DNA from: Anaerolineales bacterium
GTDB lineage: Bacteria > Chloroflexota > Anaerolineae > Anaerolineales > Villigracilaceae
DNA: 64,000 nt
NCBI GenBank assembly: GCA_014379595.1
Contig: JACMLM010000057.1
Location: 1 to 64,000 of the forward strand
Direction of reading: 5' to 3'
The notes under the pieces are model-generated. The model saw only the letters and a list, made by a program, of their open reading frames with translations. It was not told the origin of the DNA and did no database searches. The translations under genes and the position numbers were made by a program. Below, piece after piece: positions 5,362 to 60,864 of this stretch. Positions within the stretch are counted from its first letter, which is position 1, and each line of letters starts with the position of its first letter.

Positions 5362-5380
5362 GCCGCTCTCCTTTAGAAAA

Positions 5381-5428
5381 TATAAAAATAAAGGGAAGCG
5401 GTTCAAGCCGCTTCCCTTTATTTTTATA
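5381..5428 (-). terminator. 21-bp perfect hairpin between binding protein and permease genes
   Basis: A perfect 21-base inverted repeat (5381-5401 with 5408-5428) with loop TTCAAG, GC-rich at the tip and A/T at the base. It begins 8 bases after the binding-protein stop and ends 19 bases before the permease start. In this position such hairpins usually act as partial terminators or 3'-end stabilisers that keep binding-protein mRNA in excess over permease mRNA. Confidence 0.8.
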
Positions 5429-5436
5429 TGTCGTGA

Positions 5437-9518: not shown

Positions 9519-9636
9519 ATTTACCAATCACTGCTCACTAAATCGTTTCTTTCTTAATCTTCAACTTGATTCTGTTTTCTGGAACATTCTTTTACTTTTT
9601 ACTGCTCACTATTCACTGTTCTCTACTCACTGCCCT
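9519..9636. repeat. Degenerate short-unit repeat (CACT/TTACT type)
   Basis: The 236-base gap between SPFH and xdhC holds two blocks of degenerate ACTCACT/ATTCACT units (9519-9541 and 9600-9636). The second block runs into the last codons of xdhC. No gene or clear promoter was seen in the rest of the gap. Confidence 0.5.
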
Positions 9637-14965: not shown

Positions 14966-17962
14966 TTACTGAACCTTGATCGCCTTCCATACTTTTTCAG
15001 GCGTGGTTGGAATTTCATCCACATTCACGCCAATCGCATCGAGTATAGCATTCCCAACAGCAGGCGCGACTCCATCCATGGGAATCTCTGCCACAGCTTT
15101 GACGCCGAATGGATGACTCGGCTCAAATGTCTCCACGAAGATGGTTTCGAGTTCAGGCATTTCATCTGCGCGGAAGATATGATATCGATCAAGATCGCGT
15201 TCGATAGCATTACCTTTTTCATCGTAACGCATCTCTTCGCAGACGGCATAACCGAGCGCTTGAGTCATACCGCCTTCAATTTGACCTGATGCCGTCAGCG
15301 GATTCACGATCACACCCGAATCAACCGCCATCACAAGCCTGTCTACTGTTACCTGACCAGTTTCCACATCCACAGTCACTTCGGCAAACTGTGCTGCAAA
15401 TGGCGGCGGTGACACGGGTGAGACATAACTTGCCACGCCCATGATCTGCTCCTGATTATTTTTGTGCAGTGAGTCGAGAGCAATTTCAGTAAGGCTTACT
15501 GATCTTCCATCTGGCGCAATGGCCTGCCGATTTGCTAATCGAATCGTTTCATATTCTGCTTCTGGAATTCCAAGCAAAGTTGCCGCGCGGACTTTGATGC
15601 GCCATGCTACAACCTTTGCGGCGTTAACAGCCGCAGTGCCAGAGATGTATGTTGTAGACGAAGCATATGCACCTTTGTCAAAAGGCGTGAAGTCTGTATC
15701 CGATGAATATGTGATCATATCTTCAATGGGTACACCTAAAACTTCAGCAGCCATTTGAGCAAGGACTGTGTCCGAACCTGTGCCAAGATCAGTTGCGCCG
15801 ACCAATAAATTAAAAGAACCATCATCGTTCATTTTTATGGATGCGCCGCCCATATCCAAGTATGGAATCGCTGTGCCTTGCATCACCATCGCGACGCCAA
15901 TACCCTTAAGAACAGACGATGGACGATGGACAGTAGACGGTCTATGGTCCACGGTCTTCCGTCCACTCCGCCATTCTTCATTCCCATATTTATCGTCCCA
16001 TCCAATTGCGGCTCTGCCTTGTGCCACACATTGTTCCAACCCCACAGTATGAATGATCTCTGGTCGTGGTTCGCGGCCTTCGTTCCATGCTTTTGAGAAT
16101 GGATGATATTCACCGGCATGAATCGCATTTTTCAAACGGAAATCAATCGGGTCAAATCCCATGGCGCGCGCGATCTTTTCCATGTGACGATCCAACGGCC
16201 AATAACCTTGCGGCACGCCGTATCCACGAAATGCACCAGCGGGCGGCGTATTGGTATAAACCACATCTGCATAAAATCTAATATTTGGCTCTTTGCGATA
16301 TTCACCATCACCGACATACAAAGCCATTGCTTTATGACCCGTATTGCCTGTAACTGTCAACGCATGACAGCCATATGCACCTGTATCTGAAAGTGCATAC
16401 ATTGAATTGGCCGTGATCGTGCCATCTTTCTTCACACCTGTTTTCATTTTCACGCGCATCGGGTGACGTGAACGCGCCGCGATAAATTCCTCTTCACGCG
16501 TGTATTCGTACATCACTGGTCGTTTGGTTGCAATTGTTAAATGTGCAGGCACATCTTCCATGAGCACTTCTTGTTTGCCGCCGAAGCCTCCGCCAATGCG
16601 CGGCTTGACAACACGGATTCTTTTCACAGGCAGCCCCAATACAGGTGCAAGCATTCGCCTGACGTGAAATGGGACTTGTGTTGATGTACGAATCACTAGG
16701 CGATCATCTTCATCCCAATAAGTGACCGTGATATGAGGCTCAATGGAAACCTGCTGAACTTTAGGTACTTCATATTCCGCTTCAAAAATTTCATCGGCTT
16801 CGGCAAAACCTTTTTCCACATCTCCAATATCAATGCGGATTTCTGCAGCGAGATTCTTTTCTGGATTGGAATCTGCAAAGTTGACATACTCAGGCTCATC
16901 GTGAATCCGAATCGGACTCCCCATAGCCTGCCTCGAATCAAGCAGCGACTCCAACACCTCATACTCTACCTCGATCAACGCTAAAGCTTTCTCTGCAATC
17001 TCCGCAGTTTCTGCCGCGACGAATGCAACGCGGTCACCGACAAATCTAACTTTGTGATCGAGTGAGAATGTATCTAAAGGCCCAGGGATCGGGTCAGATT
17101 GACCTGCAGTGGAATATACAACGCGCGGAATATCCTGCCATGTCAGTACAGTAGCAACACCTTCAAGCTCTTTGGCTTTGCTTATATCAATTCTTTTAAT
17201 AAGTGCATGTGCATGAGGTGAATGTAAAACTTTTGCATGTAACATGCCGCGCTTTTCAAAATCAGCAGTGAAAGCAGGCTTGCCTTGTACCAGCTTGATG
17301 GCATCTATTTTAATTTCAGGCTTGCCAACCGTTTGCCATGTCTTTGATTCAGGAGTGACCACAACTTTTGGGCGTGTCATCACACCTGAGATATGTGGTG
17401 CCGCGAAATCGTCATTGGATGAATCCTTGGGCGGTCCGCCAAAGTCCCAATTGATTGCATCCCATGTGACGAGTTCATCGCCTCGCATTTTTGCAGCAGC
17501 TTGCAAAACAGCTTGGACAGGTTTGAGATACCCTGTACAACGACATAACACGCCAGAAATCGCCTCGCGAACTTCTGCTTCACTGGGATTTGGATTTTTA
17601 TCAAGCAATGATTTCGCAGCAAGGATTTGGGCTGGCGTGCAATATCCGCATTGAATGGAACCATTCTCAACGAAAGCCTTTTGCAAAGGATGTAGACCTT
17701 CAGTTGTCTTCCACCCTTGTTCAGGATGTTCTCCTAGCGCTTCTATTGTTGCGATCTTATGACCTTCTGCCTGCGCCGCCAGAATTGAACCCGCGTTAAC
17801 AGGTTTGCCATTTAACAAAACGGTATCAGAACCACTCAAGCCGCCTTCATCCCCAAACTTGACTCCATGAAATCCAAGTCCACGCAGGGCGGTGAGCAGG
17901 GTTGTTGATGGGGTAGTGTCAATATTGTGGTCTATGCCGTTGATTTTCAGCGTGATATTCAT
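14966..17962 (-). CDS. XdhD-like molybdenum hydroxylase, fused Fe-S and molybdopterin subunit
   Basis: A 998-residue fusion. Residues 1 to about 160 are the iron-sulfur module and about 205-998 the molybdopterin-binding region (GGGFGGKQ near 455, PPAGAFRGYG, DLGTGSDTV, GVKAVAEIPMDGVAPAVGNA). The second [2Fe-2S] site is intact (Cys105, 108, 140, 142), but the plant-ferredoxin site reads GDEGGLSGSDTV where CxxGxCGAC is expected, so Cys38, 43 and 46 have become Asp, Ser and Asp. E. coli XdhD, linked to ssnA and ygfM, is degenerate in the same place, which supports this subfamily over classical xanthine dehydrogenase. Residues about 664-682 are an extra segment encoded by a palindromic repeat. 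Substrate, possibly a purine, is unknown, and nothing here shows selenium dependence. Confidence 0.9.
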   Translation of the reverse strand: MNITLKINGIDHNIDTTPSTTLLTALRGLGFHGVKFGDEGGLSGSDTVLLNGKPVNAGSILAAQAEGHKIATIEALGEHPEQGWKTTEGLHPLQKAFVENGSIQCGYCTPAQILAAKSLLDKNPNPSEAEVREAISGVLCRCTGYLKPVQAVLQAAAKMRGDELVTWDAINWDFGGPPKDSSNDDFAAPHISGVMTRPKVVVTPESKTWQTVGKPEIKIDAIKLVQGKPAFTADFEKRGMLHAKVLHSPHAHALIKRIDISKAKELEGVATVLTWQDIPRVVYSTAGQSDPIPGPLDTFSLDHKVRFVGDRVAFVAAETAEIAEKALALIEVEYEVLESLLDSRQAMGSPIRIHDEPEYVNFADSNPEKNLAAEIRIDIGDVEKGFAEADEIFEAEYEVPKVQQVSIEPHITVTYWDEDDRLVIRTSTQVPFHVRRMLAPVLGLPVKRIRVVKPRIGGGFGGKQEVLMEDVPAHLTIATKRPVMYEYTREEEFIAARSRHPMRVKMKTGVKKDGTITANSMYALSDTGAYGCHALTVTGNTGHKAMALYVGDGEYRKEPNIRFYADVVYTNTPPAGAFRGYGVPQGYWPLDRHMEKIARAMGFDPIDFRLKNAIHAGEYHPFSKAWNEGREPRPEIIHTVGLEQCVAQGRAAIGWDDKYGNEEWRSGRKTVDHRPSTVHRPSSVLKGIGVAMVMQGTAIPYLDMGGASIKMNDDGSFNLLVGATDLGTGSDTVLAQMAAEVLGVPIEDMITYSSDTDFTPFDKGAYASSTTYISGTAAVNAAKVVAWRIKVRAATLLGIPEAEYETIRLANRQAIAPDGRSVSLTEIALDSLHKNNQEQIMGVASYVSPVSPPPFAAQFAEVTVDVETGQVTVDRLVMAVDSGVIVNPLTASGQIEGGMTQALGYAVCEEMRYDEKGNAIERDLDRYHIFRADEMPELETIFVETFEPSHPFGVKAVAEIPMDGVAPAVGNAILDAIGVNVDEIPTTPEKVWKAIKVQ
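15913..15966. repeat. Palindromic repeat read in frame inside the molybdenum hydroxylase
   Basis: A block built of GACGATGGAC, GTAGACGGTC and GGTCCACGGTC-like units. On the minus strand it adds about 18 residues (RKTVDHRPSTVHRPSSVL) between EEWRSG and KGIGVAMVM. E. coli XdhD has no counterpart there. The core TCTACTGTCCATCGTC matches the repeat in CofD and the one at 38724-38743. Confidence 0.75.
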
Positions 17963-21868: not shown

Positions 21869-21891
21869 GTTGTGTCATTCGCCATAGTAAT

Positions 21892-21953
21892 GTAGGGGCG
21901 ACCCGCCAAGCGAGAGCGAGCCTACCTGATAAATAGTGAAGGGTCGCCCCTAC
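21892..21953. repeat. Palindromic GTAGGGGCGACCC element
   Basis: Inverted arms GTAGGGGCGACCC (21892-21904) and GGGTCGCCCCTAC (21941-21953) are 13 bases each and perfect, around a 36-base loop. The element abuts the methyltransferase stop codon and could fold as its 3' hairpin. A diverged relative lies at 57440-57500. Confidence 0.75.
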
Positions 21954-23263
<1,310 letters not shown>

Positions 23264-37331: not shown

Positions 37332-38312
37332 TTATAAACTCCGGATAAAGTGTAGCACATCCATTGCCAACCGGGTGCGATCTGTAAGGTGATTCATAAG
37401 TGTGTCTGTTATAAGAGTCTTTACACTTATCTTTATTGAAAGTTCCGCATCAACTGAATCCAAAACAAATCCGCTCAATAAGCCTCGATAGTGCTCCGCT
37501 ACTGCCAATGCCGAAGGTTCAATGCCTAATTCCGCATACATTTTTGCGGCTGGCCCTTTTACTGCCTTGCCGCCGATGATCGGTGAAACTGCAATAACAG
37601 GCTTGTTTATTTTTTGGATGACTTTCAGAATCGGATCTATGCTGACCCAGGGATTTGATGGGCAAATGACAATTGCATCCGCTGACTCAATCGCTTCACG
37701 AGCCCGGCTAACTGGCGCGGAGCGTGCGGCATCGACTCCGTCAAACCGAAAGCCTTTGACTCTTGGCTCACAGCGTCTGTGAACAAAATACTCCTGAAAG
37801 GCGAGTTCGCCATCGTCTGTGTCAACGATTGTTCGCACAGGCGAATCAGTCATTGGCAAAATAGTATGTTGGATTCCCCATGCTTTACAAAAATCTTTTG
37901 TAATTTGAGAGAGCGACTGGCCTTCTTTTAATCTTCTTGTTCTTTCAAGGTGAGTTGCAATATCCTGATCACCCAACCGAAACCAATTGGGTCCGCCAAG
38001 TTTTTCTATATTTGTAATCGTATTCCATGATTCATTAACACGTCCCCAGCCAGTTTCTGGGTTGGCAAGTCCAGCCAGCGTATAGCAGACTGTATCCAAG
38101 TCGGGACAAATATATAATCCCAAATGTTCAAAGTCATCGCCAGTGTTGACGATGACGGTCAGGTCTTCAGGTGCAAGGATTTGGGCAAGCCCGTGTGCAA
38201 GTTTTGCACCACCGACCCCGCCCGCGAGAGCAACCACTCGACGGTGGACGGTAGACGTTGGACCGTTTGTATTTTTTTTAGACAAAGGATTACTAGAATA
38301 AGTCTGTGCCAT
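37332..38312 (-). CDS. cofD: FO phospho-lactyl/enolpyruvyl transferase
   Basis: A 326-residue CofD/FbiA that joins the CofC product to FO to give F420-0 or dehydro-F420-0. It has [17 protein letters not shown] (about 27-43), [11 protein letters not shown] and the CofD motif [17 protein letters not shown] (about 245-261). Most CofD proteins begin at VVALAGG; here about 26 extra residues precede it, part of them (TSTVHRR) encoded by a palindromic repeat. The start at 38312 overlaps the upstream S23 gene by 20 bases; a weak start. No FO synthase (CofG/CofH) lies in this window. Confidence 0.93.
38240..38266. repeat. Palindromic repeat read in frame in the CofD N-terminus
   Basis: GACGGTGGACGGTAGACG followed by TTGGACCGT. 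Read on the minus strand it encodes NGPTSTVHR, sharing STVHR and the reading frame with the insertion in the molybdenum hydroxylase. Confidence 0.7.
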
Positions 38313-38703
38313 AAATTGCTGTTTCTTCGCCAATTGATTTGCTGCTCGATTTGAGTGATTTGCGAAATGCAAACAGTCGTTTTGCCAAATCTTGTGACTT
38401 CAGGTCAATCTTTTCCATAAAAGATTTATCACTTACATAATTTCTACGAATAATAATTCTTTGACAAGCGACTGTCTCGATAAGAGATCGAATTGCCATC
38501 CCAAGAAATCTATTTTGCTCGGCATCACTTTGGCCTGTCGAGCCTTCGGCAATATTTAAGGAAATTGAAGTTGATGCCCGCGTGATTTGTGATTTCAAAT
38601 TGAACTTTTCATGTTCAGGCAACTTATCTGCGAGTTCGTAAATTAAGTCTAAATAATCCAGCGATATTTGCCAAACATCAAGTTGCTCGAATTTATACGC
38701 CAT
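38293..38703 (-). CDS. S23-like four-helix-bundle protein
   Basis: A 136-residue protein of the family first found encoded in 23S rRNA intervening sequences: [20 protein letters not shown] (about 5-24), [20 protein letters not shown] (about 40-59), [16 protein letters not shown]. Many genomes also have stand-alone copies of unknown function. The start at 38703 has SD AGAGGAAA. No rRNA is nearby. It sits inside the F420 operon, between the nitroreductase and cofD, with overlaps or short gaps, so it should be co-expressed. Confidence 0.88.
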
Positions 38704-38723
38704 ACTATTTCCTCTTGAATTGA

Positions 38724-38743
38724 ACGGTCCACCGTCTATGGTC
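38724..38743. repeat. Palindromic repeat across the nitroreductase stop
   Basis: ACGGTCCACCGTCTATGGTC, of the same family as 15913-15966 and 38240-38266. Its end supplies the last base pair of the nitroreductase TGA, and the rest lies in the 38-base gap before the S23 gene. Confidence 0.65.
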
Positions 38744-39422
38744 AAAAGAACTTTATGATTTCCTCGAGCGGCTTTCTCTCTCTTGGTTGTGGAATATCTG
38801 CTGGATATCCTAAAAAATACATCGCCTGGGGTTCCCATGTTTCAGATAACTCAAGTGCTTGTTGCACTACATTCGGCGCAAACAGTGGACTGCAAACCCA
38901 TACGCTTCCCAATCCTTCTGCGTGTGCCGCGAGCAGTAATTGCATGCCTGCATTTGCTGCAGATTGAGTTGCCATAATATATTCTGCTTTTTGGCGCTGT
39001 GCATCTGGATATGTATCCATTTCAATCATATCTATACATAAGATAATAACTACTGGTGCACCAGTAATTCTATTCCGTGAATTTGCAACCTTTTTTTCTA
39101 TTTCTTCTGGAGAAAGAGAGTCTGCCTCCAGGTCACGTTGGAATTCAACAGCCATTGCATCTGCCAGTTTTGTTTTAGTAGATAAATCTGTTAATACTGC
39201 AAACCTCCACGGTTGGCGGTGATGCGCGGATGGGGCGTATGTTGCAGTGGTGAGAATCTGCTCAATAACAGAATCAGGTACCGGGTCCGCTTTGAAACGG
39301 CGGATCGAGCGGCGAGTCCGTAGAAAGGTGTGGAGATCAGTTGTGTTTATCAAAGTGGATTGGTTTAATTTTATAGATAATCCGTTTTTGTCCCTCACGA
39401 TATTTCCACGGTTCGTTATCAT
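38742..39422 (-). CDS. FbiB C-terminal-type nitroreductase, probable dehydro-F420-0 reductase
   Basis: A 226-residue FMN nitroreductase-fold protein (FLRTRRSIRRFKADPVPDSVI, about 33-53; YAPSAHHRQPWRFAVLTD; LGSVWVCSPLF). In actinobacteria the FbiB C-terminal domain of this type reduces dehydro-F420-0 while the N-terminal domain is the CofE ligase. Here both exist as separate genes in the same operon, which supports the PEP/dehydro-F420 route; that is an inference. The ATG at 39422 overlaps the PPOX gene by 86 bases; a TTG at 39353 would leave a smaller overlap. Neither has a good SD. Confidence 0.78.
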   Translation of the reverse strand: MITNRGNIVRDKNGLSIKLNQSTLINTTDLHTFLRTRRSIRRFKADPVPDSVIEQILTTATYAPSAHHRQPWRFAVLTDLSTKTKLADAMAVEFQRDLEADSLSPEEIEKKVANSRNRITGAPVVIILCIDMIEMDTYPDAQRQKAEYIMATQSAANAGMQLLLAAHAEGLGSVWVCSPLFAPNVVQQALELSETWEPQAMYFLGYPADIPQPRERKPLEEIIKFF

Positions 39423-59994: not shown

Positions 59995-60864
59995 ATGTTC
60001 CGTAATATTCTTCGTCTCTCCCGCCCACTTCACCTCCTGCTCGCCGCGCTGACTTATACCCTCGGCGCGAGTATCCCTGCATATCTTGGTCATTCTCTTC
60101 AAACTGCAATCTTTTGGCTGGGACTCGTACTCGCCCTACTGACGCAAATAAGCATGACTCTTCTTGCTGAATCTTTTCGTCCGCACAATGAGCCATACTT
60201 TGAAAATGAAACGCCCAAACAAAAGCAAGACCTTCGCAATATAACGCTTTACATTTCTATTGCTTCACTCACGACTTATGCAGTCCTTGTTTACATATTA
60301 TTTACCAATTACCAATTACCACTAATCACTTTCTACTTTCTACTCATCTCTCTTCTTCTTGTTATCTCGTATGCTATTCCTCCGATCCGCTTGATTAATC
60401 ATGGCTTTGGCGAATTGACTCTTGCTGCGCACCTCGCGTACATCATTCCGTCCATTGGATTCTTGCTTCAGGCTAAAGAGAATCATCGCCTGTTGATGTT
60501 AATCGTTATTTCATTGACTGCGCTTGCGCTTGCATATTTTCTCGTGATCAACTTTACATCTTTTCCATCTGACCAAAAGTATCAACGTGCCACTCTCCTT
60601 CGCCGCCTCACATGGGAACACGCTGTGCCTTTGCATCATGGGTTGATCGTGTTTGCTTATGTTATCTTTGCCGTTGCACCTTTGCTGGGTTTCTCGATCC
60701 TTTGGCCCGCCTTTCTCACAATTCCTTTCGCGATTTTGCAAATGCTTCTTCTTCGTCACATCTCAAACGGCGGCAAGCCAAACTGGATTTTGCTTACTGC
60801 TACGGCACTCTCTGTCTTTGGTTTGACAGCATATTTCTTGACTCTTACCTTCTGGCTTCGTTAG
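59995..60864 (+). CDS. UbiA-like membrane prenyltransferase homologue with degenerate motifs
   Basis: A 289-residue protein with eight or nine membrane segments. The N-terminus LRLSRPLHLLLAALTYTLG matches MenA/UbiA proteins. The first Asp-rich motif (NDxxDxxxD) reads LAESFRPHNEPYFENE, and the second (DxxxD) FPSDQKYQRATL, so the diphosphate-binding aspartates are mostly lost. It is either a divergent prenyltransferase or a catalytically dead relative. A TM segment (NYQLPLITFYFLL) is encoded by short direct repeats at 60302-60350. Confidence 0.65.
   Translation: MFRNILRLSRPLHLLLAALTYTLGASIPAYLGHSLQTAIFWLGLVLALLTQISMTLLAESFRPHNEPYFENETPKQKQDLRNITLYISIASLTTYAVLVYILFTNYQLPLITFYFLLISLLLVISYAIPPIRLINHGFGELTLAAHLAYIIPSIGFLLQAKENHRLLMLIVISLTALALAYFLVINFTSFPSDQKYQRATLLRRLTWEHAVPLHHGLIVFAYVIFAVAPLLGFSILWPAFLTIPFAILQMLLLRHISNGGKPNWILLTATALSVFGLTAYFLTLTFWLR
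60302..60350. repeat. Short direct repeats inside the UbiA-like gene
   Basis: ACCAATT ACCAATT ACCACTA followed by TTTCTACTTTCTACT; similar units occur at 9519-9541 and near 10781-10800. They translate in frame within a predicted membrane segment. Confidence 0.5.

Follow-up and report, generated by a model that had tools for sequence, protein, structure and literature searches.

Palindromic seven-base repeats lie in frame in a molybdenum hydroxylase and recur, with changing words, in protein linkers of the same genus

Here we describe a palindromic repeat element and the protein linkers in which such elements lie. The element sits in a 64,000-nucleotide stretch of DNA from an Anaerolineales bacterium (Chloroflexota, Villigracilaceae; assembly GCA_014379595.1, contig JACMLM010000057.1, positions 1 to 64,000). 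We call the whole stretch the window and its genome G000; other genomes are named in the same way. The window encodes a molybdenum hydroxylase (XDH below), and the element is found in frame in a loop of this enzyme. It is built from degenerate units of seven bases (heptads). Related elements are dispersed in the genome, and many orthologous linkers of congeners contain seven-base-periodic DNA whose words often differ between genomes. Such elements probably land in genes again and again and survive only in permissive linkers.

The hydroxylase loop and dispersed copies of its element

The hydroxylase is XdhD- or aldehyde-oxidase-like and fuses 2Fe-2S and molybdopterin domains (Table 1). Pfam recognises Fer2_2, Ald_Xan_dh_C, MoCoBD_1 (367-613) and MoCoBD_2 (683-936) in it. 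Congeners contain long orthologous matches, and the family has been solved structurally (1rm6 is the top match of a PDB search). Among named loci, the two best protein matches of the genome are from Chloroflexota (57% and 53%) and the third is from Armatimonadota (52%). The top match, L277 from Anaerolineae, reaches its 57% over 857 residues.

GAC-type heptads, one central G and GTC-type heptads make up the element, a layout that can be written (GACNRYR)n (GTCYRYN)n. Its translation is GRKTVDHRPSTVHRPSS, and about 17 of the roughly 20 loop residues come from it. As RNA the element forms a hairpin of -22.5 kcal/mol (z = -2.44). A preliminary description of the window had proposed that a palindromic repeat lies in frame inside the hydroxylase and adds about 18 residues between two conserved stretches. 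Both points hold: the core of the repeat is 15915-15963, and it spans residues ~669-686, in the linker between MoCoBD_1 and MoCoBD_2. At this place the shortest loops among congeners are 6-9 residues long. We also looked among the congeners for homologues that lack the repeat and still share its residues, a result named beforehand as a refutation, and saw none.

Similar repeats are spread over the 4.47-Mb genome. With at most one mismatch, GTCYRYNGTCYRYNGTC has 99 overlapping matches, compared to 12 for the reversed pattern; with no mismatch the numbers are 55 and 0. The search for like repeats that the preliminary description had suggested thus yields about 33 clusters, many of them inside genes, although several clusters are single weak matches. 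Any of the four bases can precede GTC, and the matches have no fixed GTAG or CGTC end.

We examined 24 pairs of a cluster and an open reading frame (ORF). Besides XDH, 20 ORFs were scanned, and a Pfam family was found in 19 of them. At least 13 clusters fall in frame within enzymes that Pfam recognises, most of them at a domain border or in a loop. The domain-border copies are those in ValRS, CarA, MutL, lipoyl E2, FTCD, a GlcD-like oxidase, a glycosyltransferase and an ADH/GFO-IDH fusion; another copy follows directly after DUF1786. In QueA, a MurD-like ligase, RecJ and a GMC oxidoreductase the copy falls within the matched domain and hence in a loop.

Reading frame says little about these copies. 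The preliminary description took the frame shared with cofD (STVHR in both proteins) as a sign of a coding element and expected one preferred frame. Neither idea survives. Since 7 and 3 are coprime, successive units take successive codon phases, and each same-strand frame gives a nearly identical seven-residue cycle. The agreement between hydroxylase and cofD is therefore automatic and uninformative, and a frame test cannot discriminate. The units of the hydroxylase element alone already occupy phases 0, 1 and 2. Over 17 genic copies the GAC and GTC units fall into the three phases 34, 33 and 37 times, and the first units 7, 4 and 6 times. These 17 are the 24 genic rows minus seven that are weak single hits or lie at gene edges; the MetH row (L095), also a weak single hit, and L086, a gene with no Pfam family, were kept. 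Hence we reject frame preference as a mark of a coding element. In-frame stops are absent from the 17 copies, compared to 10 and 13 stop trinucleotides in the other two phases, but the copies were partly picked for being open in frame.

The arms of an element are not visibly copies of each other. Adjacent units of one arm share 1.71 of their four variable bases and units of different elements share 1.80 (18 elements of G000), which speaks against local slippage. In the outermost register, arms pair with their own partner at 0.407 and with swapped partners at 0.465 (18 elements); in the best of three registers the values are 0.776 and 0.779 (19 elements, p = 0.61). By location, p is 0.97 for genic elements and 0.06 for intergenic and gene-edge elements together. 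The idea that the arms are fold-back copies is thus unsupported in G000. Folded as RNA and compared with shuffled sequences, 12 copies have z values of -1.05 to -6.50: six genic copies range from -1.05 to -2.97, six intergenic or gene-edge copies from -2.92 to -6.50. For genic copies, the word palindrome fits the motif layout better than it fits a maintained hairpin.

Orthologous linkers across the genus

To follow these places through the genus, we used 13 segments of G000 genes, without the repeat residues, as queries in ten congeners. The congeners were picked for their assembly and differing word counts, not for their linkers. Both flanks were recovered for 85 linkers of 11 genes, and together with 29 XDH loops (26 congeneric, three from the order) this gives 114 linkers. 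GT4 was dropped for lack of a two-sided match, as was CofD, which we examined separately in six relatives. Partial XDH matches were left out (for example G028, G007, G011, G014 and G006).

The linkers have a period of seven bases. Base identity in the 114 linkers is 0.50 at lag 7, 0.44 at lag 14 and 0.39 at lag 21, compared to 0.21-0.29 at the other lags up to 20 and 0.25 for the flanks at lag 7. There are 2503 lag-7 matches, and codon shuffling within linkers leaves 1334 +/- 30. Within the genus 64 of 110 linkers are individually significant at lag 7 (50 of 85 without XDH). At the control lags 4, 5, 8, 10, 11 and 13, significance is reached by 6/111, 1/110, 5/107, 3/107, 2/96 and 1/96 linkers, and among flanks at lag 7 by 2/222. 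Linkers from outside the genus but within the order give a weaker signal (4/26 at lag 7, 0-2 at other lags). G056, from another family of the order, has heptads of its own in the same XDH loop.

The period is also found when whole loci are scanned. At the XDH loci (172 kb in all), the target loops (2.5 kb) contain 15 lag-7 segments, the remaining ORF parts 13 and all other sequence 9; at lag 8 the counts are 1, 13 and 4. The loci of seven other genes (103 kb in all) contain 11, 10 and 7 such segments at lag 7, compared to 0, 4 and 0 at lag 8. Twenty 20-kb stretches of G021, chosen by position, contain 10 lag-7 segments, compared to 0-3 at lags 4, 5, 8, 10, 11, 13 and 14. Six of these 10 lie inside ORFs of at least 200 codons. 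Such ORFs cover about 88% of the sample, so genes hold less than their share, yet many. In DUF1786 of G032 and G023 an in-frame TGA looked like a disruption and turned out to be the normal gene end.

The same linker carries different words in different genomes. Classified by eye, the XDH loop holds GTCYRYN in G000 and G016, a GTCRAAR-like word in G019, G013 and G012, GTNYCAR in G032, G018, G005, G017 and G036, ACGYAAY in G031 and G001, AACGTTN in G022, GAAAGAN in G004 and G015, and AAATCNA in G008. Non-heptad repeats occupy it in G029, G009, G033 and G020, those of G029 and G009 being of GTAG type. In G023, G021, G026, G027, G025, G035 and G030 the loop has 6-9 residues and no repeat. With the loop excluded from the tree, four different words occur within a single supported clade (G022, G019, G016 and G008); the 12 loop states, again labelled by eye, require no fewer than 18 changes over 30 rows. 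A second XDH linker, after the iron-sulphur part, contains GGGANTN-like heptads in five genomes and none in G000 (Table 1). There may be a third shared address in XDH at about codons 790-810, where we observe heptads in G022 (L059, ~2084-2135) and G005 (L064, ~2061-2096).

Which word fills a linker is partly related to what the genome contains elsewhere. We counted words as overlapping matches over 41 genomes of the genus, G000 included. GTCYRYN is present in 39 of the 41, with 0-294 matches per genome and 2726 in total (81 for the reversed word). GTCVAAR occurs in 38 genomes (910 matches, reversed 82), GTNYCAR in 33 and ACGYAAY in 15. GGGANTN occurs in 26 genomes with just 168 matches (reversed 93). 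Repertoires differ sharply within the genus: G020 has 294 GTCYRYN matches in 3.1 Mb, and G063 has no match to GTCYRYN or GTCVAAR but 31 to GTNYCAR and 16 to reversed GTCYRYN.

A loop word is more frequent in the genome that carries it there than in the others (mean rank 0.755, permutation p = 5e-5, 11 congener loops, uncorrected for kinship). Across ten genomes, and likewise uncorrected, GTC heptads per linker track the genome-wide count (rho = 0.90), and genomes with a higher total word count have longer linkers, taken as the mean relative to the gene median (rho = 0.95, p = 2e-5). At the lower end stands G023, which has zero matches for five words and, on average, the shortest linkers, 2.8 residues below the gene medians.

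The cofD copy consists of a single arm, and its status depends on the start codon. It had been described as a further copy of the same family inside cofD. The repeat is present, but it precedes the conserved CofD start. If the upstream ATG is used the copy is coding; if GTG at 38237 is used it is a 5' leader. This GTG, directly after the repeat and before the conserved VVALAGG, could be the real start in G000. Among the six relatives, the junction in G016, G031 and G017 shows GTC heptads after an upstream ATG, and judged from this arrangement the repeat is probably translated there. G021 has a short remnant after the ATG, and in G022 and G023 the protein begins MKIVALAGG, without a repeat.

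Between cofD and a nitroreductase-like gene lies a small ORF (38293-38838), which we take to resemble the four-helix-bundle proteins of 23S rRNA intervening sequences. Elsewhere in the window, TTACCAA and ACTTTCT arrays form a seven-base-periodic stretch inside an ORF of about 290 codons (60287-60346), and another such stretch, ACTGCTCACTATTCACTGTTC, is found at an ORF edge (9587-9635). At 5380-5429 there is a perfect inverted repeat of 22 bp with a loop of 6 nucleotides. An inverted GTAGGGGCGACCC repeat at 21881-21964 is of the GTAG type and like the one that fills the XDH loop of G029 and G009.

Table 1. Repeat elements and associated genes. Positions refer to the window unless a locus (L) is named.
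Feature	Position	Strand	Basis
Molybdenum hydroxylase, 998 residues	14966..17962	-	ORF, Pfam, congener orthologues
Palindromic heptad element, 49 nucleotides, in frame	15915..15963	- (in hydroxylase gene)	sequence, RNA fold
GAC-heptad arm, 24 nucleotides: GACGATG GACGATG GACAGTA GAC (+ strand letters)	15915..15938	+	
GTC-heptad arm, 24 nucleotides: GTCTATG GTCCACG GTCTTCC GTC (+ strand letters)	15940..15963	+	
cofD (2-phospho-L-lactate transferase), ORF from TTG start	37332..38372	-	Pfam CofD
Second copy, one arm, directly upstream of conserved cofD start	38240..38263	-	
Third match, short, 17 nucleotides, near the border of two - strand genes	38727..38743	+	
Y1_Tnp (RAYT-like) genes ~1-1.4 kb from heptad elements	L081 5441-5659; L096 2800-3045		
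XDH genes with GGGANTN-like second-linker heptads	L046 (G031), L055 (G001), L056 (G004), L059 (G022), L061 (G015)		

Origin of the linker repeats

To explain these observations, we propose that dispersed elements of seven-base units repeatedly land in genes and survive there only in permissive linkers. We assign this explanation a probability of roughly 0.7. Copies of degenerate palindromic repeats would keep arriving at many sites of the genome. Intergenic copies would be tolerated and nearly all intragenic copies would be lost. The genic survivors would be those in flexible interdomain linkers, loops and protein ends, with a length that is a multiple of three and no in-frame stop. They would be translated into polar spacers with a seven-residue period (QTVDHRP...STVHRPSS), presumably neutral for the protein. 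A unit of seven bases would suit survival in coding sequence, since the peptide hardly changes from one forward frame to another. If permissive addresses are few and arrival is frequent, then the same linker will be refilled with each genome's own words, and its length will grow with the repeat load. Dispersal, position in frame, the seven-base period of orthologous linkers, different words at one address and the relation to genome load in ten genomes are observed; mobility, repeated arrival, neutrality of the spacers and their translation are the inferred parts of this proposal.

Several observations weigh against this proposal. The 11 genes were chosen because G000 carries a repeat there and are thus ascertained in that genome. 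In the position-chosen sample of G021 (400 kb) the lag-7 excess is modest, and in XDH-locus ORF parts outside the target loop lag-7 segments are exactly as frequent as lag-8 segments. Genic arms are self-complementary no more than expected by chance. G012 and G036 fall below the median for their own loop word, and two other words, with few linker matches, follow the genome-wide count less well than GTC heptads do (rho = 0.62, p = 0.05; rho = 0.37, p = 0.29). Neither the ten-genome correlations nor the loop-word permutation takes kinship into account.

Some linkers also look inherited rather than refilled. GlcD has 'GLSSTVYR' in G000 and G016 and decayed forms of it in G021, G022 and G023, and the GAAAGAN insert is common to the sister genomes G004 and G015. 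G023, without matches to the five words, still has linkers with a small lag-7 excess (0.34 vs 0.28), consistent with old copies that have decayed, like the one in GlcD. No congener XDH protein exceeds 90% identity.

Alternatively, the words could be replaced in place. Some genome-wide copying machinery with a seven-base step might overwrite linker words with the current word of the genome, a form of concerted evolution. We hold such overwriting to be improbable.

Arrays could also arise locally: replication slippage would create seven-base arrays in place and expand them wherever they are tolerated, with no dispersal at all. According to the accessible parts of two papers, no long simple repeats are more abundant than heptamers in many bacteria, and slippage has been proposed to have a footprint of 7 nucleotides (PMC4679880, PMC4692102). 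Perfect arrays of a single word are found in many phyla, with four identical units in 58 of 124 elements among the matches listed. However, the greater likeness of neighbouring units that local duplication would leave is missing in G000. The same degenerate word recurs in inverted arms across the genome, and linker words track the repertoire of the genome. Hence we find slippage an unlikely source of the linker repeats.

A third possibility is that these are classical repetitive extragenic palindromic (REP) elements, moved by a RAYT (Y1_Tnp) transposase and caught in genes by accident. All but one of the 41 genomes of the genus contain Y1_Tnp genes, G000 among them. For two of the seven Y1_Tnp genes listed for G000 (of eight), an element lies less than 1.5 kb away (C24, C69), where 0.155 are expected (P(>=2) = 0.011), at a distance chosen after the data had been seen. 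Another Y1_Tnp gene (C9, L188) has a repeated AAACCT stretch about 240 nucleotides away. Intragenic REPs are known from the part of the literature accessible to us (PMC3733652), and the GTAG-type fill of two XDH loops would suit this origin. Copy numbers, by contrast, do not go together: over the 41 genomes Y1_Tnp genes and GTC heptads are uncorrelated (rho = 0.03, p = 0.83), with 294 matches next to one Y1_Tnp gene in G020 and six matches next to 12 in G008. None of six scanned Y1_Tnp loci has a GTC heptad within 900 nucleotides, and the variable base before GTC is at odds with a fixed GTAG or CGTC end. We therefore doubt that RAYTs moved these elements.

Selection could instead maintain the elements if the spacer or an mRNA hairpin were functional, for example in linker tuning, translational pausing or as a DNA-binding site. 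Many copies indeed fold better than their shuffled versions. But folding is weaker in genic copies than in intergenic or gene-edge ones, and swapping the partners of genic arms does not worsen their pairing. Close species have different words at these codons, the elements sit in unrelated host enzymes, and G023 does with short linkers. A selected function is very unlikely. Assembly or binning artefacts and chance can practically be set aside, for although many genomes are drafts and single 17-nucleotide matches can be chance (the 12 reversed-pattern matches), the single-contig genomes G021 and G026 have heptad linkers as well (lag-7 identity 0.45 and 0.39 vs 0.26 and 0.28), the frames stay open, and the 64 significant linkers stand against 1-6 at control lags.

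If elements do arrive repeatedly in permissive linkers, then selfish or by-product DNA repeats are a standing source of protein linker sequence on the scale of a genus. Linker length in MutL, CarA, QueA and RecJ would then follow the repeat load of the genome. Base identity at lag 7 is a simple check of the origin of a linker. The genus would also lend itself to studying how repeats turn into protein, what makes seven-base units so frequent among bacterial repeats, and what copies them.

Known repeat systems

Rickettsia palindromic elements are dispersed palindromic repeats that lie in frame inside unrelated housekeeping genes. Among cyanobacteria, STRR heptamers are repeats of seven-base units, and small dispersed repeats are very small mobile repeats. 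The preliminary description compared the hydroxylase element to the Rickettsia elements. As far as a dispersed palindromic family in frame inside real, unrelated genes is concerned, the comparison is apt; its argument from reading frame is not, since the single preferred frame of the Rickettsia elements is missing here. The present elements also differ in their degenerate seven-base unit, their length of about 49 nucleotides, their many words and the different words in orthologous linkers. They share the seven-base period of heptanucleotide simple repeats.

That such repeats occur in another phylum is true in that the best named protein matches are Chloroflexota, but it is not new: intragenic GTAG/CGTC palindromes have been described in several phyla (PMC3733652, accessible part). 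Those REPs lie in DNA-repair, tRNA synthetase and other genes, and the authors suggest linkers or loops as their location. In Xanthomonas, two recB genes have different REPs at roughly one and the same position (PMC3733652). This sharing of a site concerns one gene in the accessible part of that paper, compared to at least ten genomes and twelve genes here. Unlike GTAG/CGTC REPs, our element has neither an end tag nor a single stem; it consists of tandem heptads in two arms and has a seven-base periodicity.

Degenerate heptamers, GGGANTN in Xanthomonas and GGGGAYT in Nostoc, are dispersed genome-wide and mostly intergenic, with an intragenic share of 11% and 7% in two xanthomonads and a higher one in Nostoc (PMC4692102, accessible part). 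They resemble our elements in the degenerate seven-base unit, and a GGGANTN-like word fills the second XDH linker. They are discussed as G-quadruplex formers, and the accessible part of that paper describes no inverted arms or refilling of linkers. The TAACTGA arrays of Beggiatoaceae are partly located in ORFs, where they give the seven-residue cycle LSVISYQ, and their authors note that they succeed at the protein periphery (PMC4679880, accessible part). In contrast to our elements they are direct repeats of a single fixed unit and lie for the most part immediately before start codons.

A pattern of five GTC units is found in at least 119 stretches from at least 18 named phyla (L209-L327), often beside other heptamer arrays. 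Among the matches listed, a GAC pair lies no more than 75 nucleotides upstream in only 11 of 124 elements, and many elements are perfect tandem arrays. We therefore do not count these multi-phylum arrays as the same element. Our literature search, which covered few subscription papers, found no account of palindromic heptads refilling one set of protein linkers throughout a genus. Palindromes inside genes are known, as are heptamer repeats; what seems new is that a whole genus reuses the same linkers while the words change.

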